Of a stretch of 64,000 nt of DNA, positions 18,988 through 48,369 are shown in pieces; positions within the stretch are counted from its first letter, which is position 1; every line of letters begins with the position of its first letter. The stretch lies in NCBI RefSeq assembly GCF_041146795.1, contig NC_135168.1, forward strand, positions 37,340,370 through 37,404,369. Direction: 5' to 3'. The translations under genes were made by a program, and so were the position numbers. The notes beneath the pieces were generated by a model, which was not told where the DNA came from, did not search any database, and was given only the letters and a program-made list of their open reading frames with translations. Source of the stretch: Maylandia zebra (lineage: Eukaryota > Chordata > Actinopteri > Cichliformes > Cichlidae).

Positions 18988-21900
18988 ATGGCTCTAAGCG
19001 GCTCTCTGCACATATCCGTCGGCATCCTGAGCATCGGCGGTGGTAAGCTTGTGATTTGCTTTCCGAAGTGTTACCAGCTTTGTGTTTGTTTTGTTTTTTT
19101 CATGTAGACTATCATGCGCGCTCATATTAATCATAACTCATATTGTCACATTAACATGAGGTGAAAAGACATTTTAATAAAGTGATTTATTTAAACTGCT
19201 GTAAGTGACCTCGAACAGCCGCCTGTCGTGAACGATATCAAGACATTTTAAGCCAGAAAGAACGGCTGAAAAAGGAGTAGTGTTAGTATAGTGCAGAAGA
19301 CAGAGTAGGTGGGTACAATAATTCAGTCACAAGGATACTTGCAAAGATGTTATGTCTTTATATTCTATGTAACCTCTTTGAGAATCTTGTTGAATACAGC
19401 CTATTTACCAAAGTAAGTAAAAATATTAGATGAAATAACAACTACACACACTTAGAAAAGCTGAAAATCACTTTTAGCATAATTTTTTAAACTATCCAGT
19501 CTGCTGTAAATAAATAAGAGTTCATAATGATAAAAAACGAATTCATTATTAATTATGATTTAATAATTAAAGAATAATATAAATAATAATAAAATAATAT
19601 TTCATGACGATCCTTTTAAGGTTGTTAAGTTAACTTTAAAAAACAAACTAAAAATAGATGTGAAAAAAAAAACACATTTTTGTTAACCAAAAATAAACAG
19701 ATTTTTTTTTAAGCAAAAAATAATAATAATAAAGCGGTAAAGATGAGAAATAAAGATAAAGCCAGTGATTTTATCCTACAGGTTCACTCCTGCTTTTGGT
19801 GAATGGTTATGGCAGCACTCCTGAAAAAGACTTGGTCCCCCACACTGCACTGGGAATTCTGCTTCTCATCACTGCAGCGCTTCTGGCTTACTCAGGTTTG
19901 TTTAGGTTTGAGTTTTATTATTGCATGTTGTCATGTAGCTGTAAGTGTTTCTCCTGACCCTGCCCTGTTTTTTCTTAGGAATCCGTCACAGTCTGTCCCA
20001 CGGCCGCCTGTTTTCCACCCTGTGTCTCACTGTTTCTGCTCTGTGGTGTGGCTCTGGTCTGGTGTATATCCTGGGAGGGCAGAGGGTCATACAGCCCACA
20101 CAGCTGAGATTCGCTTTTGTCCCAGGCCTTGCAGCATTTATATTGGCCTTGCTCATCATAGGCATTGCTGCTGTTGTAGCAAAGAAAGCAGTTCTCTTTC
20201 TCATAGCTGTTGGTATCTCCTTAGCTTCCGCCCATCAGATCGCAGGTCTGACAGCGGTAGGTTTTGGCCTGTATGCCACAGCTGCTAACTACTTCCTTGT
20301 CTGTCTGGTGTGTCTTTACTTTGGTTCTGGACGTCTGCTGTCTGTGATCACTCACGGTAAAGTGGAACTTCCTGGAACAGGTGCGAAGAAGAAAGCTGAG
20401 CTGAAAGCAGAGCAGAACCAGGGGTGTAATGATGCCGTGTCAGTGAGTTTGGCGATGAATTTATTATCTGCGTCTGTATTAGCCTGCCCCCTGCTAGGTG
20501 TGGTCCCTGAGCTCTCTGTCGGTCATGTCCCCTGGCTGTGGACAGCTGGCGTGTTCCAGCTCGGCATGTGTATCCTCTTTTACAGAGGTATGGACATGCT
20601 TGCTGCCACTTTTTATGGCTTCACTTCCCTCTTCGCGTTTGCAGAGGGTTACAGTGCCCTGCTGTCATTTTATTCCATTCGGCCTTACTCACCTGTTCCC
20701 TTTCCTGTTGTCTTCTCAGTTCTTTTCTTCATACTGGCTCTGTTCAGTACTCAGAAGGACCTGCTGGAGGGCTTCTACCAGCTATTCTTTGTCGCCTATT
20801 CTATTGCTCTTGCAGCCCAGCCTCAAGGCTTTTTCCAAGCAGGCACTCAAGGTGTCCAGGCAGCTATATTTGTGGCTTCTGCTTGCATGCTTTTGATTAC
20901 CACCTTTAACATGGCCTCTAGTACCAAGATTCCCACAGGGCAGAGCTGTTTCAAGGCTTTAGTTGGCAGGATGCAGAGCGTTACTCTCAGGGCACATGAC
21001 AAAGAATTGCACACACCTTACCTGGGCTACTCTAAATATGCAGATGCAGAGGTGTTAGGCCATGCATCCAATGTGCTGGCTACTTTCGCAATCACAGCCA
21101 CAGTAGGTAGCCAAAATCCTCTCTTTGTGCTGATTCTACCCTGGGTGGTCATGGCTGGCGGAGCACTGGAGCTGCTGTGCGGCGCAGTAGCCTTTGCTCG
21201 TGGTAAAACCTTTGAGAGCACAGTCTTTATTCTCTATGGGGTGATGTGGACGGTGTGGGGGCTGACACGATATGGCGGCCTGTATGGGGAGACCAGAGGT
21301 CTTAACATTGCTGTTGGGATCATTACCTTCCTTGTGTTCAACATTTTAGTAACAGCTGCAGCGTTGTTTATGAACGTCGCATGGTTTGTCTACGCATTTA
21401 CCTTCCATCTCATACTCATCAGCTTCCTGCTGGACGCCATGGGCTCGCTGCCTTATGGCTATGACATAGGAGTCACAATCATCTTTGGCCTTGTCAGTTT
21501 TTATTTTTTCTTGGCACACATTTTCAACAGCACCTTCAAGTCTCCTCAGATCCCCTTAGGAAACCCTATTATCAAGCTGACTGGAGCAGGGGGAGGGGCA
21601 GCTGTCTGTCCACATTTACCAGCCCGTAAAGCCACATCTGTCCTACAGATTGCAGGTAAGACATAGAATACACTGATGCTGAGTTCTCAAATAAGCAGAT
21701 GTTAGTATGCTGGACGTGGGTTTCATTTTACTATCACCCCCTCTTCTTTCTTCATGCAGAAATCATGAAAAATGGCGGCATATGTGGAATGCCTACTGAC
21801 ACCGTCTATGTGCTGGTGGCTGCTTGCAACAGACCTGATGCTGTAATCAAAGCTTACAAGTGAGTTTCCTATTTCATGTATTTCACTTGTCCCTAAGTGT

Positions 21901-22997
21901 ATTTATAGCTGTCTAATTCCTGTTAAATCTCGCTATTTTGTTTGGCTTCAGGGTGAAGAAGCAGGCAGAGGACCGTCCCATGTCCATGTGGATCTCCTCT
22001 GTCAAGCAGCTGGAGCCGGTGCGACACCTGCTGAGCCCTCTGCTTCTGGACTTCATGGAGGCTGCGTGGCCATCTTCCATTAGCATGGTTATACCAAGAG
22101 GTGAGTGTAAGACTGTGCGTGAGTGTGTCTGTGTGCTGGTGGGATTTTTCTTATTATCATCATTTTTTGTTTCTTGCTTTCTCACACAGGCCCGTGGATG
22201 GAAATCTTTGGTTTGGGAGATGCTGCCAAACACATTGGGACTCCACAAAGCATTGCTATCAGAAACCCCGACTGTTCTGTAGCCACACATCTCATTGGTT
22301 TGGTAAGGGACATCAATATTGATCATTGCATGTCCAAAAATGAACCAAAATCAGTGAATATAAACTTCTAATACTTATTCCTATAGGTGGGGCCCATTGC
22401 AGTAACATCAGCCAACCCCACAGGTGAAGCTGATACAACTCACCACAATCAAGTGTATGCCAAACTGGGAAACAAGGTAATCATGATAATTTAGTTAATG
22501 AAGACTAAACAAGCTGCTGATTCCTAATTTTTTTCAGTTTTATTTTGTTTTTACTGAACTGGACGTGGTTTTGTTTCTTAGGTGGATGGAGTGTTATGTG
22601 ATGGACCCTCCCCAGAGAACATTGCATCTACTGTGGTTGACTGCACCAAGATTGAAACTGGACAAATTGGTTTCTTTAGAGTCGGTCTCATTCCAAAATC
22701 AAAGGTAATATAAAGATGACACAGTCATTCTCTCTGTTGTAGTAATTTGGTGGTTGTTTACTTTGAAACCTGCTATTTCTGTCTGCTTTCAAGGTTCTTC
22801 AAATCTTTGAGGAGGTTCAGAGGCGGCACAGACAAGGGCAGACCAATCCTGCCTTTCAGTATGATATGGAGCTACCACTTACAGAAAGAGACATTTCAGA
22901 AGTGGGAAGCACCGAAGATTCGGGAAGAGAGTCTGAAAACTCAACACCCTGCCCGCCTTCACTTGAAGAAAATCCAGTCCTCGGGAATGGATCGTAG
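18988..22997 (+). CDS. Fusion gene A: triple SatP/AceTr-like membrane protein with C-terminal YrdC/Sua5 domain
   Basis: Exons 18988-19042, 19782-19895, 19979-21655, 21760-21859, 21952-22100, 22190-22302, 22387-22476, 22582-22704 and 22794-22997 join in phase to 874 residues. I count about 18 hydrophobic helices up to residue ~575, in three groups of six. The second and third groups repeat a pattern (PWLWTAGVFQLGMCILFYRG; LPWVVMAGGALELLCGAVAF) like the helix 2-3 region of the GPR1/FUN34/YaaH succinate-acetate permeases. Residues ~618-830 form a YrdC domain: GGICGMPTDTVYVLVAA, then IAIRNPD, AVTSANPTGEAD and STVVDC, which are the ATP/threonine-binding blocks of threonylcarbamoyl-AMP synthases. 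The usual KxR motif is altered (VKKQAEDRP). A short Ser/Glu-rich tail follows. Poly(A) signal at 23034. The predicted role, a transporter with nucleotide-binding partner domain, is inferred. Confidence 0.85.
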
Positions 22998-23039
22998 TTT
23001 CTATGCATTTGCTTAAAATATGCTGCCATTTCTAATAAA

Positions 23040-26075: not shown

Positions 26076-26369
26076 ATTACCTGATACTGGAACCAGGAAA
26101 TATACAGGTCACTTTTTCTGAGCATCAACAGGCACTCTGGATTTATTTGATGATGGACGGCTTTTTAAACACAGTGAGTGGATGGCCCTAAAGTCTCAAA
26201 AAAAAAAAAACCTCAGTGCTATGATGCAGCAGTAATATTGTGACACTAAAAGACACTCATCATATAAAACTGCATTAAGAGTGCATAGATTATCAATCAC
26301 GAGACAGCAGGTTGTGCCCTGCTGGTGAAATTTGTGGAAGGAGGAAGTATTGTGTTTTTGGTTAAATAT

Positions 26370-26990
26370 GTCAGAAACATCCCCACAGCATGGTGCTGCC
26401 ACCATCACTGTCGAGGTGGTATTGGCCAGGTGATGAGTGGTGCCAGGTTTCATCCAGACATGACGCTTGCCTTTTGGGCCAAAGAGTTCAGTCTTTGTTT
26501 CTCATGGTGCCCTTTGACAAAGTCTACGTGGGTTGTCATGTGCTTTTTACTGAGGAGTGGCTTCATCTGGCCACTTTACCATACAGGCCTGAGTGTTCCA
26601 GAAATGGTTGTCCTTCTGGAAGGTTCCCCTTTGTCCACAGAGCAGTGCAGGAGCTGTCAGAGTGACCACTGGGTTCTTGCTTACCTCCCTGACTTAGACC
26701 CTTCTACCCTGATTCCTCAGATTGGTATTTCTGTACCTTTCTCTAGGTCGGTGCCTCAATACAATCCTTACAATCCTGTCTCGGAGGTCTATAGACAATT
26801 CCTCGGATGTCATGGCTTTGTTTGTGCTTTGACATACACTGTCAGCTATGAGAACTTACATAGACAGGTGTGTGCCTTTTCAAATCATGTCGTATCCACT
26901 GAATTTAGCACAAATGGACTCCAGTCCCCCGTAGAAATCTAATAGACGATCAGTGGAAACAGGGTGAACCTGAGCTCAGTTTTGAAGTTA
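26370..26990 (-). mobile_element. Tc1-like transposon fragment with long antisense open frame
   Basis: Contains antisense transposase blocks seen in many fish Tc1 copies: CAGCATGGTGCTGCCACCAT, ACTGAGGAGTGGCTTC, GGTTGTCCTTCTGGAAGG, ACAATCCTGTCTCGGAGGTC and the terminal-region GACAGGTGTGTGCCTTTTCA. The 205-residue frame on the plus strand is a shadow. Internal deletions are evident. A shorter sister fragment is at 28108-28455. Confidence 0.75.
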
Positions 26991-27004
26991 TATAAACATA
27001 AAAT

Positions 27005-28025
27005 ATTGTTTTATAATAATAAAACAATATTTTATGACGATCCTTTTAAGGTTAAGTTAACTTTAAAAAACAAACTAAAAAAATAGATGTGAAAAAAAAA
27101 CATTTTACTTAACCAAAAATAAACAGATTTTTTTTTAAGTAAAAAAATAAATAAATAAAGCGGTAAAGATGAGAAATAAAGATAAAGCCAGTGATTTTAT
27201 CCTACAGGTTCACTCCTGCTTTTGGTGAATGGTTATGGCAGCACTCCTGAAAAAGACTTGGTCCCCCACACTGCACTGGGAATTCTGCTTCTCATCACTG
27301 CAGCGCTTCTGGCTTACTCAGGTTTGTTTAGGTTTGAGTTTTATTATTGCATGTTGTCATGTAGCTGTAAGTGTTTCTCCTGACCCTGTCCTGTTTTTTC
27401 TTAGGAATCCATCACAGTCTGTCCCACGGCCGCCTGTTTTCCACCCTGTGTCTCACTGTTTCTGCTCTGTGGTGTGGCTCTGGTCTGGTGTATATCCTGG
27501 GAGGGCAGAGGGTCATACAGCCCACACAGCTGAGATTCGCTTTTGTTCCAGGCCTTGCAGCATTTATATTGGCCTTGCTCATCATAGGCATTGCTGCTGT
27601 TGTAGCAAAGAAAGCAGTTCTCTTTCTCATAGCTGTTGGTATCTCCTTAGCTTCCGCCCATCAGATCGCAGGTCTGACAGCGGTAGGTTTTGGCCTGTAT
27701 GCCACAGCTGCTAACTACTTCCTTGTCTGTCTGGTGTGTCTTTACATTGGTTCTGGACGTCTGCTGTCTGTGATCACTCACGGTAAAGTGGAACTTCCTG
27801 GAACAGGTGCGAAGAAGAAAGCTGGGCTGAAAGCAGAGCAGAACCAGGGGTGTAATGATGCCGTGTCAGTGAGTTTGGCGATGAATTTATTATCTGCGTC
27901 TGTATTAGCCTGTCCCCTGCTAGGTGTGGTCCCTGAGCTCTCTGTCGGTCATGTCCCCTGGCTGTGGACAGCTGGCGTGTTCCAGCTCGGCATGTGTATC
28001 CTCTTTTACAGAGGTATGGACATGC
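27005..28025 (+). pseudogene. Truncated 5' duplicate of fusion gene A
   Basis: Copies 19580-20600: the end of intron 1, exon 2 (27208-27321), intron 2 and the first ~615 bases of exon 3. The intron is retained, so the duplication was DNA-mediated. I see about five substitutions across the exon 3 part (for example CGT to CAT at its start), so it is roughly 99% identical. The copy stops after residue sequence GMDML where gene A goes on with AATFYG, and runs into repeat DNA that ends the frame three codons later. It has no exon 1, no modules 2-3 and no YrdC part. It is probably non-functional, though a short membrane peptide is possible if transcribed. Confidence 0.85.
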
Positions 28026-28107
28026 TACTTTCAGAATAGTGCAATGCAATTCAAGTGTACTTGTGTATTAATAAGCAACTCTTTATACATACTTTATACA
28101 TACAGGC

Positions 28108-28455
28108 CTGAGTGTTCCAGAAATGGTTGTCCTTCTGGAAGGTTCTCCTTTGTCCCTCCCTGACTTAGACCCTTCTACCCTGATTGCTTAGATTGGTATT
28201 TCTGTACCTTTCTCTAGATCGGTGCCTCAATACAATCCTGTCTTGGACGTCTACAGACAATTCCTTGGACGTCATGGCTTGGTTTGTGCTTTGACATACA
28301 CTGTCAGCTATGAGAACTTACATAGACAGGTGTGTGCCTTTTCAAATCATGTCGTATCCACTGAATTTAGCACAAATGGACTCCAGTCCCCGTAGAAACA
28401 TCTGATAGACGATCAGTGGAAACAGGGTGAACCTGAGCTCAGTTTTGAAGCTCAG
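28108..28455 (-). mobile_element. Tc1-like fragment, sister of 26580-26990
   Basis: Starts with CAGGCCTGAGTGTTCCAG like the copy at 26585 and follows it closely, with an internal deletion, through GACAGGTGTGTGCCTTTTCA to GTGAACCTGAGCTCAG. It directly follows the truncated gene A copy, so that fragment is flanked on both sides by related Tc1 pieces. Confidence 0.75.
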
Positions 28456-28462
28456 GTGCTTC

Positions 28463-29010
28463 AAAACACGGCTGTTTCCTGAATGTTTCTAAGCAATTTA
28501 GATAGTCAGAATTGTTTTAAATACTTCCTTAATTGTGAATAATTAACTAGCACACTAACTCAAGTGATTCTCAGTGATCTAATATTTATGTGAACTTTGT
28601 GACTGAATAATCAACGAGTTACCAAAAAAGAACCAGGAAACGTACAGGTGTCAGCGGGCTTTTCCCTCACTACACTTTCCTCCTAGTTTGAGCAGCAACA
28701 CTCCCCCTGGACTCATTTTATGATGGGAAATTTTGTAGCTCAGAGTGAGCACAAGCTCCCACCCAAAGTCTTAGAAAACTCGAGCTCCAACAGGTGGATG
28801 GGGAGCATAGCTTTTCACCCATTTTCAGATCTTACCAGAGATGTACGATCAGTCTGGCCTCCGGCTTGGACACTCAAAGTCTTTTACTTTGTTAAAAAAA
28901 AAAAAGATGAAGTGATGGCCTTATTTAGTCACTGAAAACTGCTTTGTTAGGTTTAGGAAGTTTTGTGTTTTGTGTTAAATATGTCGTTTTGCAACATAAA
29001 TCTAATGATT
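28463..29010. repeat. Direct block repeat, copy 1 of 2
   Basis: About 548 bases recur at 32405-32954. From about 28535 onward the two look essentially identical, including a 71-codon open frame that is the same in both. The frame has no recognisable domain. It contains Tc1-related words (CTCGAGCTCCAACAGGTGGA) and is best seen as repeat-derived. Confidence 0.85.
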
Positions 29011-29272
29011 TAAATTTAATGCAGTGACTTTATAGTGTTTCTGTATCTGGTGACTAACATCACTGACACAAAAGAAACCAAAGAAACATATTGCATGTAC
29101 GAGAGGAAATAGTAGCCTTTGAGGAGTCTTCTGAGAATGGGTAAAATGTTAAGCTGATTGTCAGGGCTGATGTGGAAAGACAGGACTCGTATGCAGGGCT
29201 CCTTTGAAGAAGACAGTGGATTTATTTACAGTGAAGCAAAGGTAACAACAACAACAACAGTTCAATATATAC

Positions 29273-30630
29273 AGACGTGGACTAAATTGTTGGTACCCTT
29301 CAGTCAGTGAAAGAAAAACTCACAATGGTCACAGAAATAACTTTAATTTGACAAAAGTAATAATAAACAAAAAATTCCAATCTTAACCAATGAAAGTTTG
29401 ACATTGCTTTCCAACCATGCTTCAACTGAATTATTTAAAAAGTAAATGCATGAAACAGGCCTGGACAAAAATGATGGTACCCCTAGAAAAGAATGAAAAT
29501 AATGTGACCAAAGGGACATGTTAATCCAAGGTGTGTCCACTAATCAGCATCACAGGTGTCTGCAATCTTGTAATCAGTCAGTGGGCCTATAGGACTCCAG
29601 GTAGTCACTGTGTTGTTTGGTGACATGGTGTGTACCACACTCAACATGGACCAGAGGAAGCAAATGAAAGAGTTGTCTCAGGAGATTAGAAAGAAAATCA
29701 TAGACAAGCATGTTGAAAGTAAAGGCTATAATATATATCTCCAAGCAGCTAGATGTTCCTGTGACTACAGTTGCACATGTCATTCAGAAATTTAAGATCC
29801 ATGGGACTGTAGCCAACCTCCCTGGATGTGGCTGCAGGAGGAAAATTGACAACAGATCAAAGAGACGGATATTCCGAATGGCAACAAAAGAGCCCAGAAA
29901 GAAATCCAAGCTGAACTTCATGCTCATGGAACATCAGTGTCAGATCGCACCATCCGTCGTTGTTTCAGCCACAGTGGCCTACATGGGAGACGACAAAGGA
30001 CACTATTGTTGAAAACAAATCATAAAAAAGCCAGACTGGAATATGCCAAACTACATGTTGACAAGCCACAAAGCTTCTGGGAAAATGTCCTGTGGACAGA
30101 TGAGACAAAAATTGAACTTTTTGCCAAGGCACATCAGCTCTATGTTCACCGACGGAAAAATGAAGCATATCAAGAAAAGAACACTGTCTTAACTGTGAAA
30201 ATGGGGGAAGCTCGGTTATGTTCTAGGGCTGCTTTGCTGCATCTGGAACAGGGTGTCTTGAATCTGTGCAGGGTACAATGAAATCTCAAGACTATCAAGG
30301 GATTCTAGAGAGAAATGTGCTGGCCAGTGTCAGAAAGCTTGGTCTAAGTCGCAGGTCATGGGTCTTACAAAAGGACAATGACGCAAAACACACAGCGAAA
30401 AAAAACACCGAAGGATGGCTAAGAGGGAAACATTGGACTATTTTAAAGTGGCCTTCTATGAGCCCTGACCTCAATCCTATTGAGCATTTTTGGAAGGAGC
30501 TGAAACATGCAGTCTGGAAAAGGCGCCCCTCAAACCGGAAACAACTGGGCCAGTTTGCTTATGAGGAGTGGGCCAAAATACTTGCTGAGCGGAGCAGAAG
30601 TCTCACTGGCAGTTACAGGAATCGGGGTTT
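29273..30630 (+). mobile_element. Tc1-like element with nearly complete but disrupted transposase
   Basis: The left terminus (GGACTAAATTGTTGGTACCC) is followed by a transposase gene from the ATG at 29646. Recognisable parts are the N-terminal helix-turn-helix region (KELSQEIRKKIIDKHVE) and the DDE catalytic residues in WTDETK (Asp codon 30099), LQKDNDAKHTA and SPDLNPIEHFWKELK. The acidic triad is therefore present, but the reading frame shifts several times: the parts lie in different frames at 29646-29740, 29710-30012, 29937-30281 and 30266-30643. The right end is lost and joins another repeat near 30640. Confidence 0.8.
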
Positions 30631-30644
30631 TTTTTTTTTTTAAT

Positions 30645-30950
30645 GCATTTGAAAGAATGTCAAGCAATCTCTTGTAGAGTTTTGATGTAAAATAATAATA
30701 ATAATAATAATAATACTAAGTCTAATCAGTTTTTCAATAAGGCTGTAACATGATAAAATGTAGAATAAGGGAAGTGTTGCCAATGATTTCTGGATGCTCT
30801 GCAATAACCTTTGATGCCCTTGGAATGAGGAAAATGTTAAGCTAAGGTTTGGCGGGAAATTCGGCAGTTTCGCTATTATGATTAGCAATGCATTTGTTAT
30901 GTCATGTAGATAAAAATATAAATTATGTAACTATGTAACTAACTTGTTTT
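30645..30950. repeat. Tc1-derived terminal block, copy 1 of 2
   Basis: The block with GGCTGTAACATGATAAAATG and GATGCTCTGCAATAACCTTT recurs at about 32045-32335 with a few percent difference. It contains an (AAT)n tract at 30690-30713. The words match the terminal region of Tc1-like elements. Confidence 0.6.
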
Positions 30951-31159
30951 GTTTAGAGGCAATCTGATGTTTTAATACTTCCTGACTTGTGCAATAAGTC
31001 AAGTGATACTCTTCCATGAATAAGCAACCGTGCATACTTTGTCACACTCAGTATGGCAAGCTGAGAGCAGTAGCTGTTGTAAACCATTATTTCCATATCC
31101 TCATGAGTAACACCACTGATGTAAAATGGTGTTACAGCCTTCATCCATAATGCATTACA

Positions 31160-32045
31160 TTCATTTTTTTACACACAATACCCCATAATGACAAAATGAA
31201 AAAAAAAAAACAGTTTGCTTGAAATTCCTCCAAGTTTATTATTTATTATTATAAAATAAAAACATTTATACAAAAACATGTAGTGAAAACATTTACTCAA
31301 TATTTTGAGGGGAACCTTTGGCAGCAATTGCATTTTATTTTCTGAGTATGATGCTACAAGCCTGGCACACATATTTTTGGGCAGTTTCTCCTATTCTTCT
31401 TTGAAGAACCTCTCGAGCTTCAACAGGTGGATGGCGAACGTCCATTTCCTCCCCATTTTCAGATCTCTCCAGAGATGTTCAATCAGGTTCAAGACGGGGT
31501 TCTGGCTGGGACACTCAAAGATATTCACAGTGGTCCTGAAGCCACTCCTTTGTTATCTTGGCTGATTGTTTAGGGGCATCGTCCTTTAGGAAGATAAACC
31601 TTCTCACCAGTCTGAGGTCCAGCGCTTTCTGGTGCAGGTTATCAACAAGGATGTCTCTGTATGTTGCAGTATTTGTCTTTCCCTCGACCCTGACAGGTCT
31701 ACCAGGTCCTTCTGCTAAACAACATCTCCACAGCATGATGGTGCCACCACCATGCTTCATGTATTGTATTGGATGTATTGGCCAGGTGATGAGTGGTGCC
31801 TGGTTTCAGCATGACACTTGCCTTTCGGGCCAAAGAGTTCATATTCCTTGGACTTTCTTGGGCGTTATTCTTTGACATGTACTGTCAACTATGAGACCTA
31901 ACATAGACATGTGTGCCTTTTCAAATCATGTCGTATCCAATGAATTTACCACAGCTGGACTCCAATCCCCTGTAGAAACATCTGATAGATGTTCAGTAGA
32001 AACAGGCTACACCTGAGCTTGGTTCTGAGTGTCATAAGTGTCCTT
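31160..32045 (-). mobile_element. Tc1-like transposon remnant, antisense
   Basis: In minus orientation part of the transposase can be read (MKHGGGTIMLWRCC, RVEGKTNTATYRDIL, FLKDDAPKQSAK). The catalytic Asp block is degraded and the C-terminal third is deleted. Outside it are the usual CACAATACCCCATAATGAC and GACATGTGTGCCTTTTCAA terminal-side words. Confidence 0.8.
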
Positions 32046-35542: not shown

Positions 35543-37874
35543 CCCAGCACGCCCCTGCGGGCGGTTTATCCTTCAAGCTCGGGTCCTCTACCAGAGGCCT
35601 GGGAGCTTGAGGGTCCTGCGCAGTATCTTAGCTGTTCCCAGGACTGCGCTCTTCTGGACAGAGATCTCCGATGTTGTTCCCGGGATCTGCTGGAGCCACT
35701 CGCCTAGCTTGGGAGTCACCGCACCTAGTGCTCCGATTACCACGGGGACCACCGTTACCTTCACCCTCCACATCCTCTCGAGCTCTTCTCTGAGCCCTTG
35801 GTATTTCTCCAGCTTCTCGTGTTCCTTCTTCCTGATATTGTTGTCATTCGGAACCGCTACATCGATCACTACGGCCGTCTTCTTCTGTTTGTCTACCACC
35901 ACTATGTCCGGTTGGTTAGCCACCACCATTTTGTCCGTCTGTATCTGGAAGTCCCACAGGATCTTAGCTCGGTCATTCTCCACCACCCTTGGGGGCATCT
36001 CCCATTTTGACCTCGGGACTTCCAGGTTATACTCGGCACAGATGTTCCTGTACACTATGCCGGCCACTTGGTTATGGCGTTCCATGTATGCCTTCCCTGC
36101 TAGCATCTTGCACCCTGCTGTTATGTGCTGGATTGTTTCTGGGGCATCTTTACACAGCCTGCACCTGGGGTCTTGCCTGGTGTGATAGACCCCAGCCTCT
36201 ATGGATCTTGTACTCAGAGCTTGTTCTTGTGCTGCCATGATTAGTGCCTCTGTGCTGTCTTTCAGTCCAGCTTTGTCCAGCCACTGGTAGGATTTCTGGA
36301 TATCAGCCACCTCCTCTATCTGCCGGTGGTACATACCGTGCAGGGGCCTGTCCTTCCATGATGGTTCCTCGTCTCCCTCCTCTTTCTTGGGTTTCTGCTG
36401 CCTGAGGTATTCACTGAGCACTCGGTCAGTTGGGGCCATCTTCCCAATGTATTCTTGGATGTTCGTTGTCTCATCCTGGACTGTGGTGCTGACACTCACC
36501 AGTCCCCGGCCCCCTTCCTTCCGCTTAGCGTACAGCCTCAGGGTGCTGGACTTGGGGTGAAACCCTCCATGCATGGTCAGGAGCTTTCTTGTCTTTATGT
36601 CAGTGGCTTCTATCTCCTCCTTTGGCCAGCTTATTACCCCAGCAGGGTACCTGATCACGGGCAGGGCGTATGTGTTGATGGCCCGGATCTTGTTCTTACC
36701 ATTCAGCTGACTCCTCAGGACTTGCCTGACCCTCTGCAGGTACTTGGTGGTTGCAGCCTTTCTAGCGGCCTCTTCATGGTTCCCATTTGCCTGCGGGATA
36801 CCCAGGTACTTGTAACTGTCCTCTATGTCTGCAATGTTGCCTTCTGGTAGTTCAATCCCCTCAGTTCTGACTACCTTCCCTCTCTTTGTTACCATCCGAC
36901 TACACTTCTCCAGTCCGAACGACATTCCAATGTCATTGCTGTATAGCCTGGTAGTGTGGATCAGTGAATCGATGTCTCGTTCACTCTTGGCATACAGCTT
37001 GATGTCATCCATGTACAGGAGGTGGCTGACAACTGCTCCGTTCCGTAGTCGGTATCCGTAGCCAGTCTTGTTAATGATCTCACTGAGGGGGTTCAGGCCT
37101 ATGCAGAACAGCAGTGGGGACAGAGCATCTCCTTGGTAGATCCCGCACTTGATGGTAACTTGTGCTATGGGCTTGGAGTTGGCCTCTAGTGTTGTACGCC
37201 ACATCCCCATTGAGTTCCTGATGAAGGCTCTTAGGGTCCCATTGATCTTGTACAATTCTAGGCATTCCAGTATCCAGCTGTGGGGCATTGAGTCATAGGC
37301 CTTCTTGTAATCAATCCAGGCAGTGCACAGGTTGGTCAGTCTGGTCTTGCAGTCTCGGCTGATTGTTCTGTCTACCAGTAGCTGGTGTTTTGCACCTCTG
37401 GTATTCTTGCCAATTCCTTTCTGTGTCCCGCTCATGTATTGACCCATGTGCCTGTTCATCTTAGCCGATATGATGCCTGACAGGAGCTTCCATGTAGTAC
37501 TGAGGCAGGTTATTGGTCGGTGGTTGGAGGGGACCGGTCCCTTCTTGGGGTCCTTGGGGATCAGGACCGTCCGGCCTTCAGTTAGCCATTCTGGGTGTCT
37601 TTCGTTAACTAGCAGCTGGTTCATTTGTGCTGCCAGACGCTCGTGGAGTGCAGTCAGCTTCTTCAGCCAGTAGGCGTGAACCATGTCGGGCCCTGGTGCT
37701 GTCCAACTCTTCATACTGGAGACCCTTTCTTGGATATCTGCCACTGTGATGGTTACTGGACCCTGTTCAGGGAGGTCGCTGTGGTCTGCCCTCAGATCCT
37801 CTAGCCACTGAGCATTGCCGTTATGGGTTGCATCCTTCTCCCATATGCTCTTCCAGTATTGCTCCGTCTCCAGC

Positions 37875-37877
<3 letters not shown>
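35538..37877 (-). mobile_element. RLE-type LINE (R4/Dong/Rex6-like), copy 1
   Basis: A 718-codon frame (37744-35588) plus upstream in-frame sequence encodes a reverse transcriptase with motif A WIDYKKAYDSM, motif B GIYQGDALSPLLF, the YMDD box in HLLYMDDIKLYA and the thumb-side YKYLGI. Next come a zinc knuckle (CRLCKDAPETIQHITAGC) and a restriction-like endonuclease (PDIVVVDKQKKTAVVIDVAV). This C-terminal endonuclease marks the R2/R4/Dong group, not APE-type LINEs. The 5' end is cut off by the TA tract at 37878. The 3' end is a compact GC-rich sequence next to another TA tract. The enzyme core looks intact, but the N-terminal part is missing. Confidence 0.85.

Positions 37878-37947
<70 letters not shown>
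37878..37947. repeat. (TA)n microsatellite between two divergent LINE copies
   Basis: About 35 TA units separate the 5' ends of LINE copy 1 (minus) and copy 2 (plus). Confidence 0.95.
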
Positions 37948-37949
<2 letters not shown>

Positions 37950-40545
37950 CGGACCTATGGATTCTTCGGATACCCAACATCCACAATGACGGCGAAACAA
38001 CTAGTAGCTCAGTGTTCCAACATTCGAAAGAAGGGACTGCTCTCACAGCTAGAGATTGTCGAGGTACAACACAAATGCTACGGCAAGGAGGAGTCAGGAC
38101 GCCAGGTCAGGGGGGAGATATCATCACCCCCACCCGAGATTGGGTACATAGCCCCAAGTGCGATAAGAGAAGGATCGTTGAGTGCGAGAGGAACTGACCT
38201 GAAAAATAGGATAATGGCCAAGCTTGAAACCTGGATCCCCCGTAGCCGGTTACCAAGATTACGTGAAGTACCCTCAGAAGGTCTGCTAGATGATGTTAAT
38301 GCAGCATTACGGACACAGTGGCAGATATCCAAGAAAGGGTCTCCAGTATGAAGAGTTGGACAGCACCAGGGCCCGACATGGTTCACGCCTACTGGCTAAA
38401 GAAGCTGACTGCACTCCACGAGCGTCTGGCAGCACAAATGAACCAGCTGCTAGTTAACGAGAGACACCCGGAATGGCTAACCGAAGGTCGGACGGTCCTG
38501 ATCCCCAAGGACCCCAAGAAGGGACCAGTCCCCTCCAACTACCGACCAATAACCTGCCTCAGTACTACATGGAAGCTCCTGTCAGGCATCATATCGGCTA
38601 AGATGAACAGGCACATGGGTCAATACATGAGCGGGACACAGAAAGGAATTGGCAAGAATACCAGAGGCGCAAAACACCAGCTACTGGTAGACAGAACAGT
38701 CAGCCGAGACTGCAAGACCAGACTGACCAACCTGTGCACTGCCTGGATTGATTACAAGAAGGCCTATGACTCAATGCCCCACAGCTGGATACTGGAATGC
38801 CTAGAATTGTACAAGATCAATGGGACCCTAAGAGCCTTCATCAGGAACTCAATGGGGATAGAGGCCAACTTCAAGCCCATAGCACAAGTCACCATCAAGT
38901 GCGGGATCTACCAAGGAGATGCTCTGTCCCCACTGCTGTTCTGCATAGGCCTGAACCCCCTCAGTGAGATCATTAACAAGACTGGCTACGGATACCGACT
39001 ACGGAACGGAGCAGTTGTCAGCCACCTCCTGTACATGGATGACATCAAGCTGTATGCCAAGAGTGAACGAGACATCGATTCACTGATCCACACTACCAGG
39101 CTATACAGCAATGACATTGGAATGTCGTTCGGACTGGAGAAGTGTAGTCGGATGGTAACAAAGAGAGGGAAGGTAGTCAGAACTGAGGGGATTGAACTAC
39201 CAGAAGGCAACATTGCAGACATAGAGGACAGTTACAAGTACCTGGGGATCCCGCAGGCAAATGGGAACCATGAAGAGGCCGCTAGAAAGGCTGCAACCAC
39301 CAAGTACCTGCAGAGGGTCAGGCAAGTCCTGAGGATTCAGCTGAATGGTAAGAACAAGATCCGGGCCATCAACACGTACGCCCTGCCCGTGATCAGGTAC
39401 CCTGCTGGGGTAATAGGCTGGCCAAAGGAGGAGATAGAAGCCACTGACATAAAGACAAGAAAGCTCCTTACCATGCATGGAGGGTTTCACCCCAAGTCCA
39501 GCACCCTGAGGCTGTACGCTAAGCGGAAGGAAGGGGGCCGAGGACTGGTGAGTGTCAGCACCACAGTCCAGGATGAGACAAGGAACATCCAAGAATACAT
39601 TGGGAAGATGGCCCCAACTGACCGAGTGCTCAGTGAATACCTCAGGCAGCAGAAACCCAAGAAAGAGGAGGGAGACGAGGAACCATCATGGAAGGACAGG
39701 CCCCTGCACGGTATGTACCACCGGCAGATAGAGGAGGTGGCTGATATCCAGAAATCCTACCAGTGGCTGGACAAAGCTGGACTGAAAGACAGCACAGAGG
39801 CACTAATCATGGCAGCACAAGAACAAGCTCTGAGCACAAGATCCATAGAGGCTGGGGTCTATCACACCAGGCAAGACCCCAGGTGCAGGCTGTGTAAAGA
39901 TGCCCCAGAGACAATCCAGCACATAACAGCAGGGTGCAAGATGCTAGCAGGCAAGGCATACATGGAACGCCATAACCAAGTGGCCGGCATAGTGTACAGG
40001 AACATCTGTGCCGAGTATAACCTGGAAGTCCCGAGATCAAAATGGGAGATGCCCCCAAGGGTGGTGGAGAATGACCGAGCTAAGATCCTGTGGGACTTCC
40101 AGATACAGACGGACAAAATGGTGGTGGCTAACCAACCGGACATAGTGGTGGTAGACGAACAGAAGAAGACGGCCGTAGTGATCGATGTAGCGGTTCCGAA
40201 TGACAGCAATATCAGGAAGAAGGAACACGAGAAGCTGGAGAAATACCAAGGGCTCAGAGAAGAGCTCGAGAGGATGTGGAGGGTGAAGGTAACGGTGGTC
40301 CCCGTGGTAATCGGAGCACTAGGTGCGGTGACTCCCAAGCTCGGCGAGTGGCTCCAGCAGATCCCGGGAATAACATCGGAGATCTCTGTCCAGAAGAGCG
40401 CAGTCCTGGGAACAGCTAAGATACTGCGCAGGACCCTCAAGCTCCCAGGCCTCTGGTAGAGGACCCGAGCTTGGAGGATAAACCGCCCGCAGGGGCGTGC
40501 TGGGTGTTTTTTTTTATTGTTTTTTTTTTTATATATATTAGATTT
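37948..40545 (+). mobile_element. RLE-type LINE (R4/Dong/Rex6-like), copy 2
   Basis: A 713-codon frame (38318-40459) is about 98-99% identical to copy 1, with the same reverse transcriptase, zinc knuckle and endonuclease motifs. It lacks about six codons near the middle of the reverse transcriptase (copy 1 MWRTTL) and differs at scattered residues. It extends further 5': a frame from 37986 (MTAKQLVAQCSNIRKKG) holds part of the N-terminal domain. A deletion shifts frame between ...NAALRT and VADIQER, removing the segment copy 1 retains before that point. The 3' end has the same GC-rich terminus (AAACCGCCCGCAGGGGCGTG) followed by T-rich sequence and a short TA tract. Confidence 0.85.
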
Positions 40546-40554
40546 TCTGTTGCC

Positions 40555-40745: not shown

Positions 40746-40784
40746 CGATCGTGGCTCAAGAGTTGGCAATTCGTCTTGTGATGG

Positions 40785-42600: not shown

Positions 42601-42884
42601 TACAGGGCATGAAGCAGGTATGGAGGAGATCCAGGCTCCAGACATCCAGAGACCCTCAGAGCACAAGAGACCAAGGAAGACCAACGGAGGGGCAGCCGCG
42701 CCACTATACCGAAAAGAGCTGAGGAGAGCCCCAGATGAGGGGTCACTCAGCAGCCGCAGAGCAGAAGCCAGGGGTGGGCTTTCAGATGTTGTTACATCCT
42801 TAAAAAATAAGAAAGAAAATCCAGCAATGACCTCTAACCTCGGAAAAACCAGGCAAGTTGGAGATCTTTGTCAGTGATCCACAA

Positions 42885-43260: not shown

Positions 43261-43339
43261 AAAGAAAAAAGAAAAATAAATGAAGGCTAGTTCATGACAC
43301 AGTAGTACAAACACAAACATGTTTAAAATTGAAACAGTC

Positions 43340-43990
43340 CGACTGGGGTCTGGAATGTGGGGCCTCCCTGCTGCTGTGGCGTCGGGGCGGTCTGCTTCTT
43401 TCCACCCCAGGGAAGAGCGTAACACTACCTGGGTCTGGGTGCAGTTTCCCCTTCCAGGGGCAAGGGTACCTAGACCTGGGGTATAGAGTACGCTTGGGGA
43501 GTGTGATTCTGTGTACAGTGTCTGTTTATGTCTGTCTCCACGTTGGGTGAGTGTTGAGTAATTGCATATGAGAGCATGAGGGTGGGAATGGATGTTTGTA
43601 TCTGTGTGTGCCTGTTTTTCTGTGTCTATATGTCAGGTCGGGTATCAGAGGCCACCTCTCTGGGGACATTTCAGGCCCTCCAAGGTATGGAGGCCTATCT
43701 ACCCCCCCCCCCCCCCCCCCCCCCACTCCCCCTGCCAGTAGCAGACGCCCTCAGACATCGGTGCATTGGTGGTCCTTGGTGTCCGGGGATGGGCGTCCAG
43801 GTACCCACCGGCTCACTCCTGGTGGCTGCTTGTCGGGGCTTGGAGCCTGGGGCTCACTCAGGCAACTTCGGGGGTGGGGTACCCTCAGCCTCTCGGCCTG
43901 GGGCTCGGTCACTCTGGCACAGCTGGCTGCCGGTGGAGCTCACGGGCACGTCACTGCAGCCCACCCCACCCACGTCATTGCAGCCCACCA
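43340..43990. repeat. GC-rich dispersed repeat with poly-C tract
   Basis: A sharp rise in GC content with a C(23) run at 43702-43724. The two overlapping long frames on the plus strand are proline/glycine-rich artefacts of this composition. It looks like a dispersed genomic repeat, class unknown. Confidence 0.45.
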
Positions 43991-44009
43991 ACATCTGAAA
44001 GAAAAACAT

Positions 44010-44150
44010 TGGAAGACCTTCAGACAGCCTGGAGAACTAAAAACTGGTCACTTAGAACCGCTTTAAAAACTGTGGCCGGAAAGCCTTGCTCATTGGAAGC
44101 AAAATAGAAGGAAATGAAGGGTGGCTCAAGACTTTTGCAAAGTGTTCATT
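44010..44150 (+). mobile_element. Terminal fragment of a Tc1-like transposon
   Basis: Ends with GGTGGCTCAAGACTTTTGCA, the right-terminus type of the family whose left terminus appears at 12480. It lies about 600 bases beyond the end of fusion gene B. Confidence 0.6.
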
Positions 44151-44791
44151 TATATTCATGACTATTTCTGAAGTAAAACTTGGTGCATATCGGTTCAGTC
44201 TCTGCTTCAGTAAAGGATCTTTCTAAAAATCTGTTTGTTTTCTCTTAATGCTGAATAATAAAATGCTTTAAATATATATATAATAATATGTGACTATGGA
44301 ATATTAACAACAGCATGAAGACAACATCAGTTTATGTATTTATTTATTTCAGCATAATTAATTAAACATAAAGAACTTAAATACATATACATACCCAAGA
44401 AAATAATATAGTTTAAATACATATATACAGGTTTAAAATTATTAGGCAAACAACAATTTAACATATATGTGTGTTACTATAACTGTAGTTATCATAAAAA
44501 TAATTTTTATAGAGGCACATCCGAGACATGTTATCTTCATGAAGCTGTAGTATCACAGCAGATTCTTCATCCGCATACAATTTCAAGATAAAGTTCCTAC
44601 TACAGCTAATAGATGGTACAGATGGAGTTTTTATTGTAACATATACCCATACATCCACAATTACAATAAAAAAAGCTTGAATAAGAGCATTGAGAGTATT
44701 GAAAAGAAAGAGACAGAATGACAGATAAAGCTGCTGATCCTGAAGGCAACCATTCAAGCATGTGCTCCCTTAAAGAAAAGAATCGTAACAA

Positions 44792-47700
44792 TCACAACAT
44801 TGTGCTTTTTATTCGCTCAAAGATCTGGAAAACTTTAACTGCAGGGACACAGCCTTCTCTCACAATGGTGATGGTGCCTGCAGAAAGAGTGAGATAAGTT
44901 AGATGGTGCTTCATAAAACACCCAAATTTGAATTTTATGTGACTTCTTTTGTGTTCACCTTCATCAATCTTCAAGCAGTTAACCACAGTGGAAGCAACAA
45001 CTTCATTAGAGTCTCCATCACAGAGAACTCCTTGGATCTTGTGTCCGAGTCGACTGTGCCAGAAAAGGGAGGGTAAATGAGCGGTCAGCAATCATCTATT
45101 ACTAATACTCCACATCGTAAAATAAATAATTTGTCACTTTTCTACAGAAACATTTGCTGTAAGGGGGTTACACATACTGTCACAGGTTAGATCAGTCTAC
45201 TACTTTGTAAGCTGTTTGCAAGCTCTTACTCAATGACCATGCTGTGGTGGGTGCTGTCTGCCTCTCCACTTGGATTGGCTGAGGTGATAGCAAGCGGTCC
45301 AGTAATATTACACAAGTGGCCGGTAACTGTGTGGTCAGGGACACGAATCATGATGCTGTCCCGAGTCCCAACACGGTCATAAGCTGGTCCCACTCCTACA
45401 CAGACAGATTGAGCTGAGGTGAGTGCTGATAAATGACACAGATTCCAGTAACACCATATTTACGCTGCACTACAAAGTTTACCGAGTTGGAACAGCCAGT
45501 CTCCTTTCTTGACAATGCAGCTGATGCCTCCGGGATACACATTCCTCATAAACTCCCAGAGCAGAGGACTGAAAGGAGGCTTGGCTGCCACCAGCTGTTC
45601 CACGCTAGAAATGCAAACACATATGGGCTTCTCGGCTGGTCTGTCCTGGAACAGGTTATAGATTGCAGATTAATAAGCTTTATACATCACAGACACGTGA
45701 ATATTGAATTAATTTGCCAATCTTTTAATGACTCTTACTTTAATATTGTATATTTTTTCAATGGCCTGAGGATTTTTGCAGGATGCAGCTAAGGCGTACA
45801 CGGTGTCTGTCGGAATGCCGCATACTCCTCCTTCCTCCAGAATTCCAGCGATCTTCAAGAGACCGCTGGTTAGTCGTGAGCTGGCTATCGGACATGGCAG
45901 CTCTGGCGATGTTTCCTGCTTCTTTACCTCCTAAGACAGGACACAGTGGAAAGGGCATGTTTAAAAAAACTGACTTTGAGAAGGAGCACAAAGTCAGTTT
46001 CATCTCTGCTTACCTTTAGTAAGGGAGGACCCATAGGTATGAGTCTCTCTGAGAAGATGCCGCTCACCAGTGTTGCCAGAATGCCATATACACAAATTAT
46101 TGCCACCAGTGCAAGCATAGCAACTGTAAAAAAGAAAAAAGAAAAAAGAAAAGCCAGTTTTAGAAATAATCAGCTTGAGAGTCTCTATAACATTATTAAT
46201 CATTTTTAATCAAAAGTGAATCCTATGTTTAAAAATGAGGCTTTATCAATACTTACTTTCCAGCCTATATGGCAGTCGCTGGAGGGTGGAGAGCAGGAAA
46301 CAGACAAGAGCAACTTCCATCACAGTCGTCAGAAGCAGCAAAACCAGGTTCTTATAGGCAGCTAACACACACAGACACGTAAAAAAAATCCTTCTTGAAA
46401 CAAATAATCCAATCAACAAATCTTCTATTGAGACTAACAGGGAATTTTAATCTTACCAATCAACATGAGGAAACCATTAATGACCAGGAGGGCAATGGCT
46501 CCTGCTGTGAAAGCATAAGCTGCCCCTGTGGAGAGCTGAAGCAGGGTACCTAGAAAAAAAAAAAACTTGGGTTAAGAATCTTTTCTAAATCAGAAAGAGA
46601 AATGTCCACACTAGTGTTTGTACTGGCATACCTGCGAATCGAAACCAGGTCCATGTCGCCCATACTCCCACATAGATGGACGAGATGACTGACCCAAACC
46701 GACCACCACCTGTGACTTGCAACCTGCTGACGTAAGCCTGGATGATCGCTCCAGAGATCAGGACCCAAGGGATGGTCAGATGAAGGAACGTGGGATTCAT
46801 ACTGGACAACTTAGAATGAATAGCTGACAGAGCTGCGACCCCATTTAAAAAGTAAAACAGAACATCGGAGGTCTGGTCAGTGTGGGGCACCATCTCGCTG
46901 CCTACTTGTTGGGACTTGCCCCACTTCAAAGCCTTCTTCATATTTGCAGTGGAGACCGGCTGCTTCCCTACAGGGATTAGTAACTTTTCTGCTATACTGT
47001 TGATGAGACGTGCAAAGGTGCCATAGATGGAGACTGCGGTAAACAGAGCACAAGCTACACCAAAGAAGATGTAGTAACCCTCAAGTGGAATCTGGGGTAC
47101 TGTTGAAACTGTGACTAGGACAAAAAGCATGTTGTGGATCAGTTCTAGGATGTCCATATTCAGACTTCCCACACACAGAATCAAGCCTGCCACCACAAAG
47201 AACCAGTTTCCCACCATTGCTTCTCTAGCAGAGCCTACTTCGCTCTTATTTCCGATCAGAGTAGACGCCACAAACTCACTCCAAGCCTTAATCAGCCAAT
47301 ATGTGGCATGAAATCCAAACTTTGTAGTGTGGTAGCAGTCTTGGCGCAGATGGGCATAGTAGCTAGAGAACAATTGGGCGAATGAGATGATTGAGACCCA
47401 GGCAGCTCCTAAACCAAATGACTTCATGTACCCGAAGCTGTAGAAAGCAAAGATGAAAGGAGCTACAGAGTCACAGAAGAAACCCAACGCCATGGGTTCA
47501 GCATATTTGGTGTTTTTCTTCTTCTCTTGGCCAATGCTCTGGGCACTTGCTGAGTTTCCGATTCCTAAGAGAAGAACATTAAAGAGGGGGGTCCCAAAGC
47601 CTTTGAGGGCTAGACGTTGGGTCAAACCTTTGAGGAGCAGTACAGCTGAACCGTAGATGGCAAAGATCAAAATGAGCAACTCCAGGACCCCGGATACTAT

Positions 47701-48369
47701 GAGAGCCCAGGAGCTTGCTACTATACCCACTGCTTCAAAGATTAAAGTGGCAGTGATGGCCCCAAAAACAAAAGGCATGATGTAGTTGACTGTGGCAGAG
47801 CAAAATGCCAGGAGAAAGGACAGTAAAATGTAGGGGATCAGACCCGCAATGGCTGACTCTTTTATGGACAGGAAGAAATAGCCACCTGGTATCTCTGCGG
47901 AGCCATTCAGAGATATGTTGGTCATGAGGTCAGTGGACAGAGATAAATTGCTTGTCTGATTTGTTGTTTGATTGTCAGAGACACCAGAGTAGATTCGGGT
48001 CGCCCCATAACTAGCCCAAAGAGCAGCATAGCCAATAAAGGCAGTGCCACTCAGGTGATCGTATTTTCTAAAGGAAAGTAGCCCGGCAATAAGTTGGCAT
48101 ATACCTCCAATCAGGATGAGATGAACACCTGTTAAATAAAATAAAAATGACTTAGCTAACTCTTCTTTTTTTCTTTTTTACATTATTATAGCTGATTGTC
48201 AAAAATATGTACCTGCAAGTATGTTCTCCACCCCATATGCTTCTTTGCCAGTGTGGGCTGTATTGAAATTCTGCAGAAGTACAAGGAATGCACTGATCCC
48301 ATTGGCTAGCATGCCCAGTACTCCTGGTTCCCCATAGAAACTGGCAGGAAACCCTTCTAGTGTTGCCAT
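44792..48369 (-). CDS. Fusion gene B: triple SatP/AceTr-like membrane protein with C-terminal YrdC/Sua5 domain
   Basis: In transcript order the exons are 48369-48213, 48128-46632, 46549-46457, 46361-46257, 46123-46014, 45930-45739, 45645-45483, 45395-45230, 45053-44959 and 44877-44792, in phase, 887 residues. The first module is the clearest match to SatP/YaaH: GEPGVLGMLANGISAF (compare NPAPLGL), then LIAGLLSFRKYDHLSGTAF. Further modules follow at ~190-400 and ~455-650, about 18 helices in all. A loop near residues 100-135 has several N-glycosylation sequons (NQT, NQT, NLS, NIS). The YrdC domain starts near 676: GGVCGIPTDTVYALAAS, KDRPAEKP (canonical KxR kept), IMIRVPD, AITSANPSGEAD and ASTVVNC. 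The catalytic blocks are thus better kept than in gene A. It has an untranslated first exon ending at 49089 and is divergent to acod1. A minus-strand poly(A) signal is at 44629-44634. The transported substrate is not known; itaconate is an inference from context. Confidence 0.85.

Follow-up and report, generated by a model that had tools for sequence, protein, structure and literature searches.

The membrane transporters closest to the proteins described here are those of the SatP/YaaH family (PF01184; E. coli 5ZUG and C. koseri 5YS3), with which they share a putative six-helix module that is homologous by HMM; the annotation given to E. coli SatP is acetate/succinate:H+ symporter. On the enzyme side, the nearest system is TsaC/YRDC, the t6A threonylcarbamoyl-AMP synthase. 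A third comparison is with fungal gene clusters, such as the mttA-cadA-mfsA itaconate cluster of Aspergillus terreus.

The membrane and enzyme parts have already been described in one protein. Ghasemi et al. (iScience, 22 June 2026; PMC13316224) reported a vertebrate family of about 900 aa, absent from mammals and divided into two clades, in which three AceTr modules precede a C-terminal Sua5/YrdC domain. They suggested that a dimer could resemble a hexamer and proposed that the YrdC domain couples import to assimilation; the paper gives the vertebrate ATO-YrdC proteins no substrate or tested role, and its main text makes no mention of itaconate, irg1/ACOD1, aconitate, neighbours or synteny. 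An earlier note on the present locus knew of no described vertebrate protein with such a build; this publication describes such proteins, and we have therefore dropped the novelty of the architecture; the note's idea that each chain supplies half a hexamer is likewise found in PMC13316224. The fusion architecture is thus already known, and what is new here is its ACOD1 neighbourhood.

Two ATO-YrdC genes

The window, by which we mean the whole 64,000-nucleotide stretch of Maylandia zebra DNA analysed, contains two fusion genes:

18988-22997, + strand: gene A, ATO-YrdC fusion, 874 aa, open spliced frame with GT-AG introns; 9 exons (18988-19042, 19782-19895, 19979-21655, 21760-21859, 21952-22100, 22190-22302, 22387-22476, 22582-22704, 22794-22997)
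48369-44792, - strand: gene B, ATO-YrdC fusion, 887 aa, open spliced frame with GT-AG introns; 10 exons (48213-48369, 46632-48128, 46457-46549, 46257-46361, 46014-46123, 45739-45930, 45483-45645, 45230-45395, 44959-45053, 44792-44877)

The exons were picked by eye; in both genes every intron is GT-AG and the whole frame is open, so the two genes of the earlier note, at 18988-22997 and 44792-48369, splice cleanly to 874 and 887 aa. Gene A exon 3, a single exon of 559 codons, covers modules 2-3 and reaches the first part of YrdC: the match to a solved TC-AMP synthase begins at residue 606 and the exon ends at residue 615. Because modules 2-3 and the start of YrdC lie within one exon, the fusion does not depend on any single splice. 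Gene models that wrongly join separate membrane and YrdC genes are hardly credible, even with exons picked by eye, since this exon by itself spans modules 2-3 as well as the beginning of the YrdC match, the order of parts is shared by the two paralogues, and the published family (PMC13316224) is fused.

Over A 302-816 the two proteins share 34% identity. Judged by sequence, both belong, as paralogues, to the vertebrate ATO-YrdC family already published, and their architecture shows no difference from it: they fall in the same length class (874 and 887 aa against about 900), end in a Sua5/YciO/YrdC domain, occur as more than one paralogue and carry three tandem AceTr-homologous modules, the last by pair profiles, with A3, B1 and B2 alone recognised singly.

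Membrane modules

With Pfam PF01184 (Gpr1_Fun34_YaaH), whole protein B scored 33.4 bits and whole protein A 23.3 bits, below the cut-off of 25, while in a genome search gene A exon 3 scored 27.9 bits, above it; the GPR1/FUN34/YaaH match that the earlier note proposed to look for therefore holds for B and for this exon of A, and falls just short for A as a whole protein. We also used our own SatP HMM, for which we took seven sequences, five being close enteric relatives (the loci kept from a SatP profile scan of genome contigs, at least 80, were also close enteric relatives). It scored A3 at 37, B1 at 30 and B2 at 24 bits, and B3, A1 and A2 at 3, -1 and -4; the top score among 1194 scored shuffles was 9.3, so that three of the six modules are recognised singly. 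When A and B were combined into pair profiles, all three modules aligned with SatP (one-to-one hhalign E 1.5e-5, 8e-6 and 1.4e-8). Simple hydropathy found 14 membrane helices in A and 13 in B, where three six-helix modules would have 18; the remaining helices are putative and are placed by alignment with SatP. An AlphaFold model of the two large membrane exons, made from an alignment of just two sequences, had a mean pLDDT of 40, too low for the model to be relied on. With this low-pLDDT model Foldseek returned no match at E <= 0.001 among 234; SatP chains ranked 15, 16, 27 and 50 in the best 50 of the 234, with non-significant E of 1.9-3.9.

The AceTr motifs NPAPLGL, FLY and SYGFW are whole in none of the six modules. 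As aligned, the FLY position F17 is N in A2, A3, B1 and B3, D in B2 and I in A1; the pore-constriction position is polar in five of the six; and Y72 is retained in A3, B1 and B3. A C-terminal (L/I)P-x-G, a further likeness to SatP/YaaH, is present as aligned in A2, A3, B2 and B3, and A1 comes near to it. NPAPLGL also varies in two distant bacterial relatives that we aligned, one of which varies at F17 too, and the motifs are thus no absolute test. Nevertheless, since no module has them whole, carboxylate transport by A and B is uncertain, and their substrate range may differ. Besides these altered motifs, A and B differ from SatP/YaaH in having three modules per chain and a fused enzyme domain.

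Gene B has seven N-glycosylation sequons, five of them at 105-127, in a loop that is presumably outside by SatP topology. This cluster fits a protein of the secretory pathway or plasma membrane with cytosolic N- and C-termini.

YrdC domains

As the earlier note had proposed, both proteins match PF01300 (Sua5_yciO_yrdC) on their C-terminal side (A 616-792, E 7e-31; B 684-868, E 1e-36), which together with the pair profiles upholds the reading of three SatP-like modules followed by YrdC. We checked the KxR/SxN tetrad and T33, S181 and R195 in Pa-Sua5 numbering, with the active-site residues of PMC10321239 as reference. B has all seven (T695, K718, R720, S811, N813, S849 and R866); A has six, the KxR arginine being replaced by Q653. 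The note's idea that the YrdC part could sense a nucleotide or carboxylate, or add an activated carbonyl, would thus meet a full set of checked residues in B and the loss of a key arginine in A. The domains share with TsaC/YRDC the YrdC domain itself and a TsaC-type Thr ahead of SxN, and B its full set of checked residues; unlike TsaC/YRDC, both are fused to a membrane part, and A lacks the KxR Arg. A separate canonical YRDC is present on contig C11. In short blocks, B is 38% and A 30% identical to pieces of this fish YRDC, and 39% and 36% to Pa-Sua5, figures that leave a recent copy of housekeeping YRDC unsupported as the origin of the domain.

The ACOD1 neighbourhood

Further genes lie beside A and B:

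10476-11871, + strand: PhyH-type dioxygenase-like gene, about 268 aa, spliced model
16835-17819, - strand: gene of the ES1/ElbB family, 224 aa, flanked by the PhyH-like gene and gene A, spliced model
27013-28026, + strand: A', shortened recent duplicate of gene A without the YrdC part, 97.6% identity over 1020 aligned columns
49519-53016, + strand: ACOD1/IRG1-like cis-aconitate decarboxylase, 495 aa, open spliced frame with GT-AG introns; exons 49519-49536, 50030-50084, 50228-50415, 50713-50805, 51355-51560, 52089-53016

The ACOD1-like gene is complete. Its best PDB match is mouse cis-aconitate decarboxylase (E 7e-165), the next family scoring 119 bits, and the catalytic His103, His159 and His277 (PMC11814083) are kept as His133, 189 and 312. 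It is divergent from gene B, with start codons 1149 bp apart in this one genome. The ES1 gene matches NCBIfam ElbB at 277 bits (cut-off 180) and PDB ElbB at E 3e-54. In the PhyH-like gene, where we adjusted the end of exon 4 by eye, a shift of one codon that reaches a GT donor (11486), the best PDB match is 6zyk (E 6e-21) and human PHYHD1 matches at E 1.5e-7; its NCBIfam matches are all under cut-off, and one exon searched singly against Pfam gave no match.

The genome's other ACOD1, on contig C16, is 54% identical to the ACOD1-like gene, which lies on C2. Its neighbours are KCTD8/12/16-type, ES1, CLN5 and F-box genes, so that ES1 occurs at both ACOD1 loci. Because each fusion gene's large exon has its matches on C2 only, the ATO genes accompany the C2 copy of ACOD1 alone.

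Co-regulation in zebrafish

We take the zebrafish si:ch211-153b23 genes to be the likely counterparts of the ATO-YrdC genes, and presume their orthology with A and B. In three published zebrafish studies, irg1l changes jointly with these genes. After very low PFOS, irg1l,.4 and.5 are in the top five of the genes that rise (PMC9228135), and irg1l,.3 and.5 are among the five hubs of a single inflammatory module (PMC11140123); one paper labels.4 YrdC domain-containing, and we met no such label for.3 and.5. Joint induction is also explicable by common inflammatory or neighbour regulation. Of six papers naming si:ch211-153b23 genes, two make no mention of irg1l, and our literature search found no functional connection of irg1l/ACOD1 with ATO-YrdC genes. 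Both yrdc and irg1 occur in two papers, PMC6980646, where they are in a shared gene list, and PMC11983764, and a review, PMC7419537, has itaconate together with an AceTr term, the only such case among the 25 matches listed of 35.

Possible functions

The ACOD1-like neighbour, which the earlier note does not mention, suggests itself as the best clue to substrate. We favour the reading, with a probability of roughly 0.4, that A and B are inducible carriers whose cargo is itaconate or a related compound. Itaconate is methylene-succinate, and the succinate annotated for E. coli SatP speaks for such a cargo. Each chain would have three SatP-like six-helix modules and then a cytosolic TsaC-type YrdC domain, and two chains would form a six-module ring as in SatP. 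The proteins would most likely be inducible proton-coupled carboxylate carriers of immune-activated or epithelial cells, with itaconate or a close derivative as cargo, because a paralogue of ACOD1/IRG1 adjoins them and irg1l changes jointly with their likely counterparts in zebrafish. B's YrdC domain probably works as an enzyme that forms an adenylate from ATP, bicarbonate and an amine or carboxylate, and would regulate or trap cargo; that of A is probably a nucleotide-binding pseudo-enzyme. Gene structure, domains, residue states, neighbourhood, genome-wide matches and the published lists of co-regulated genes are observations; transport, cargo, ring, topology, YrdC role and orthology with the zebrafish genes are all inferred here. 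Mammalian itaconate carriers, MCT1/4, are reported in PMC12658120, and a dedicated carrier is thus not required.

A tentative extension, possible though we would not expect it, is that the locus forms an immune metabolic gene cluster in a vertebrate. An inducible second itaconate synthase of irg1l type would have two carriers of its own, the ATO-YrdC proteins, and accessory ES1 and PhyH-type enzymes, for the release, uptake or processing of itaconate or some new derivative; in B, YrdC would convert the acid or its carbamate into an activated adenylate; and this branch would have disappeared from mammals, which retained the other ACOD1. As in fungal itaconate clusters, a cis-aconitate decarboxylase gene adjoins carrier genes, but the carrier families are unrelated and the vertebrate locus adds ES1 and PhyH-type genes.

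It is somewhat unlikely that A and B are general short-chain carboxylate importers (acetate, succinate, lactate) like yeast Ato and bacterial SatP, with YrdC coupling import to assimilation and ACOD1 an incidental neighbour. Their AceTr homology and the discoverers' own proposal (PMC13316224) point that way, whereas no module has the signature motifs whole, and the neighbourhood and the co-regulation indicate a specialised immune pathway. More doubtful is a transport-dead membrane part, a large anchor or receptor for a working YrdC domain whose adenylate, made at the membrane, would serve t6A or some other product. That A1, A2 and B3 are unrecognisable singly, that F17 is Asn, Asp or Ile across the six modules as aligned, and that B has 7/7 checked active-site residues would all agree with this; however, A retains its membrane part yet lacks the KxR arginine, contrary to prediction, and t6A has its own canonical YRDC on C11. 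We consider improbable a carboxylate sensor (transceptor), in which the ring would bind extracellular acid and YrdC signal by ATP/AMP or bicarbonate chemistry; the polar pore-constriction position in five of six modules as aligned and the inflammatory regulation of the likely zebrafish counterparts are consistent with it, as is the fact that mammals have an itaconate receptor, OXGR1.

With ACOD1 next to the fusions, and their likely counterparts in zebrafish co-regulated with irg1l, the carrier reading gives these orphan proteins a hypothesis that can be tested. It predicts that across vertebrates irg1l-type ACOD1 is linked to the ATO-YrdC genes and that they are lost jointly. Non-mammalian vertebrates may have an itaconate carrier of their own, and with it a part of innate immunity that is invisible to work in the mouse.

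Other features of the locus

kappaB-like sites number 9 against 4.2 expected, and at least 9 occurred in 5 of 100 shuffles, so they are uninformative. A scan by eye of open frames of at least 75 codons in the 30 kb on each side of the window noticed no metabolic gene; a RING-finger gene and LINE-like frames were seen there. In genome searches the large exon of gene B matched itself alone, and that of gene A matched itself and the fragment A'. This duplicate copies 19583-20600 (the end of intron 1, exon 2, intron 2 and the 5' part of exon 3) and differs from gene A by 2 synonymous, 3 non-synonymous and 17 non-coding substitutions and 4 gap positions.

Two members of the vertebrate ATO-YrdC family

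Genes A and B were rebuilt from the window, with their exons chosen by eye. The spliced models have GT-AG at every intron and open frames throughout, and the coordinates that an earlier note had given for both genes proved exact.

18988-22997, plus strand: gene A, nine exons, 874 residues
27013-28026: A', a truncated duplicate of A, 97.6% identical to it
48369-44792, minus strand: gene B, ten exons, 887 residues

HMM searches confirmed the YrdC domain that had been claimed for both proteins: Pfam Sua5_yciO_yrdC (PF01300) matched A at 616-792 (E 7e-31) and B at 684-868 (E 1e-36), and the two C-termini matched Sua5/TsaC enzymes in the PDB at E 4e-18 and 6e-18. In NCBIfam, searched with B only, the C-terminus scored 122.3 bits as an L-threonylcarbamoyladenylate synthase (cut-off 123.2) and the N-terminus 29.9 bits as an acetate uptake transporter (cut-off 50), both under threshold. 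The expected Pfam match to the SatP family, Gpr1_Fun34_YaaH, was found in B (11-98, 33.4 bits, above the cut-off of 25) and in exon 3 of A in the genome-wide search (27.9 bits), but A as a whole fell just under the cut-off (409-583, 23.3 bits). Against the PDB, the first module of B matched SatP weakly (E 0.02) and the membrane part of A had no SatP match.

Ghasemi et al. (iScience, 22 June 2026; PMC13316224) describe vertebrate ATO proteins of two clades, present in all major lineages save mammals; these are ~900 aa long, with three Gpr1/Fun34/YaaH domains of six helices each and, in nearly all cases, a Sua5/YciO/YrdC domain at the C-terminus, and a dimer may give a SatP-like ring of six domains. 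The earlier view that no vertebrate protein of such build had been described is thus superseded, and A and B almost certainly belong to this family.

Because the intron-free exon 3 of A (559 codons) carries modules 2 and 3 and the start of the YrdC domain, the predicted exon structure argues that the membrane and YrdC parts of A would form one chain. Similarity to a TC-AMP synthase of known structure in the PDB starts at residue 606, exon 3 ends at 615, and the Pfam YrdC match starts at 616, just past the end of the exon.

A tripled SatP-like module

A SatP profile made from seven bacterial proteins, of which five were close enteric relatives, gave 37 bits for A3 (the third module of A), 30 for B1 and 24 for B2, and 3.3, -1.2 and -4.4 bits for B3, A1 and A2; the best of 1194 scored shuffles reached 9.3. 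Pair profiles combining A and B matched SatP one-to-one in hhalign for modules 1, 2 and 3 (E 1.5e-5, 8e-6 and 1.4e-8), the module 1 profile matching 79 columns with query and template swapped vs 174. The proposed three SatP-like groups are therefore borne out by the pair profiles, but only A3, B1 and B2 are recognized singly. As read from the alignment, a SatP-like (L/I)P-x-G end motif is present in four of the six modules (A2, A3, B2 and B3), and A1 comes near it. Judged by sequence comparison, the tripled SatP module is real, with half of its six copies too diverged for recognition one at a time. The count of about 18 helices per protein was not reproduced by hydropathy, which gave 14 in A, leaving out a fifteenth within the YrdC domain, and 13 in B. 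AlphaFold on the large exons of A and B gave no informative fold.

None of the motifs NPAPLGL, FLY and SYGFW is intact in any module. The FLY phenylalanine, F17 in SatP, is replaced by Asn in four modules (A2, A3, B1 and B3), by Asp in B2 and by Ile in A1; the profile alignment gives the same residues for A3, B1 and B2, and those of A1, A2 and B3 are read only from the multiple alignment. NPAPLGL also varies in two distant bacterial relatives, one of which has Leu at F17. A polar residue at this position may influence transport, as is argued in the text of PMC13316224.

The YrdC domain and predicted topology

The TsaC/Sua5 active-site residues named in the text of PMC10321239 are all kept in B (7/7) and nearly all in A (6/7); the KxR arginine is Gln653 in A, and both proteins have the TsaC-type Thr preceding SxN. 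The canonical YRDC gene is separate, on another contig (C11). Over the blocks compared, the YrdC domain in B shares 38% identity with this YRDC, 39% with archaeal Sua5 and 49% with A, so that it seems not to be a recent copy of YRDC.

Seven N-x-S/T sequons occur in B, and five fall at 105-127, in the module 1 loop that joins helices 3 and 4 and lies outside in the SatP topology. This placement fits a secretory-pathway or plasma-membrane protein whose N-terminus, C-terminus and YrdC domain would all be cytosolic.

An ACOD1-like gene beside gene B

10476-11871: PhyH-type dioxygenase-like gene, left of the ATO genes
16835-17819: ES1/ElbB gene, left of the ATO genes
49519-53016, plus strand: ACOD1/IRG1-like cis-aconitate decarboxylase gene, six exons, 495 aa

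In this one genome, B and the ACOD1-like gene are divergent, with start codons 1149 bp apart. The encoded protein matches mouse cis-aconitate decarboxylase at E 7e-165, with IDS epimerase as the next family at 119 bits. His103 and His277 are essential to cis-aconitate decarboxylase and His159 matters, according to the text of PMC11814083. All three are kept in the window protein, and 58% of the 300 positions compared are identical.

The window is C2:37340370-37404369 of a 962 Mb genome, probably that of a ray-finned fish. Searches of this genome, exon by exon in six frames with the best candidates alone scored, matched the large exon of A to A and A' only, that of B to B only, and ACOD1 to two loci, the window and C16:14266321-14268555. 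In their C-terminal parts the two ACOD1 proteins share 54% identity, and the mouse enzyme is matched at 56% by the window protein and at 55% by the C16 protein. The C16 copy neighbours a KCTD8/12/16-type gene, CLN5 and an F-box gene. Because KCTD12/CLN5-type surroundings are the mammalian ACOD1 setting, the gene on C16 resembles the conventional ACOD1, and the one in the window a second, irg1l-type gene. An ES1 gene also lies about 0.5 kb past the C16 copy (L106:416-3548, on C16), its exon pieces matching ElbB and 58-72% identical to the window ES1; in the window, ES1 is some 32 kb from ACOD1, with the ATO genes between. ES1 is thus near both ACOD1 loci, which suggests an old link with itaconate metabolism, and the ATO-YrdC genes are near the window copy only.

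In zebrafish, the likely orthologues of A and B are the si:ch211-153b23 genes. In the open-access literature searched, six papers name these genes and four of the six name irg1l as well; irg1l and zebrafish occur together in 44 papers. Published lists place irg1l,.4 and.5 among the five genes most raised after very low PFOS (PMC9228135), and irg1l,.3 and.5 belong to the five hub genes of a module with inflammatory-response enrichment (PMC11140123). Entries for si:ch211-153b23 appear in PMC8877790, and PMC11489432 and PMC7083608 (stickleback) name it without irg1l; irg1l is given as 62.1% identical to mouse irg1 (PMC3206475).

A possible carrier of itaconate

A putative inducible carrier adjoining a putatively inducible cis-aconitate decarboxylase suggests itaconate as the cargo. 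Itaconate is a methylene-succinate, and SatP is a succinate-acetate permease. We tentatively propose, with a probability of roughly 0.4 for the statement as a whole, that A and B are inducible carriers of itaconate or a relative of it. In B, the YrdC domain might adenylate the cargo directly or make an adenylate out of ATP, bicarbonate and an amine, and would in this way trap or sense the cargo; the putative role of the A domain is more likely regulatory. The main text of PMC13316224 makes no mention of itaconate, ACOD1/IRG1, aconitate, neighbourhood or synteny.

Other features of the window

As to the PhyH-type gene at 10476-11871, a PHYHD1-like gene of zebrafish, zgc:174917, shares an infection list with irg1l and the YrdC gene. 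Tc1/mariner-like transposase remnants flank A' on both sides (26196-31805), one matching Pfam HTH_Tnp_Tc3_2 and the others recognized by eye. Between A' and B are two closely similar, opposite LINE-type reverse-transcriptase frames (35588-37954, minus; 38300-40459, plus, the one searched in Pfam), with AT repeats nearby. The stretch 56006-59872, whose repeated ends hold matching frames (56006-56285 and 59460-59739) and which encloses an 851-codon open frame packed with short tandem repeats of high GC content, resembles a non-autonomous LTR-type element. Finally, coiled-coil frames at 6234-7163, with weak NEMO CC2-LZ profile matches under the cut-off, may belong to an NF-kappaB regulator of TNIP/ABIN type next to the cluster.
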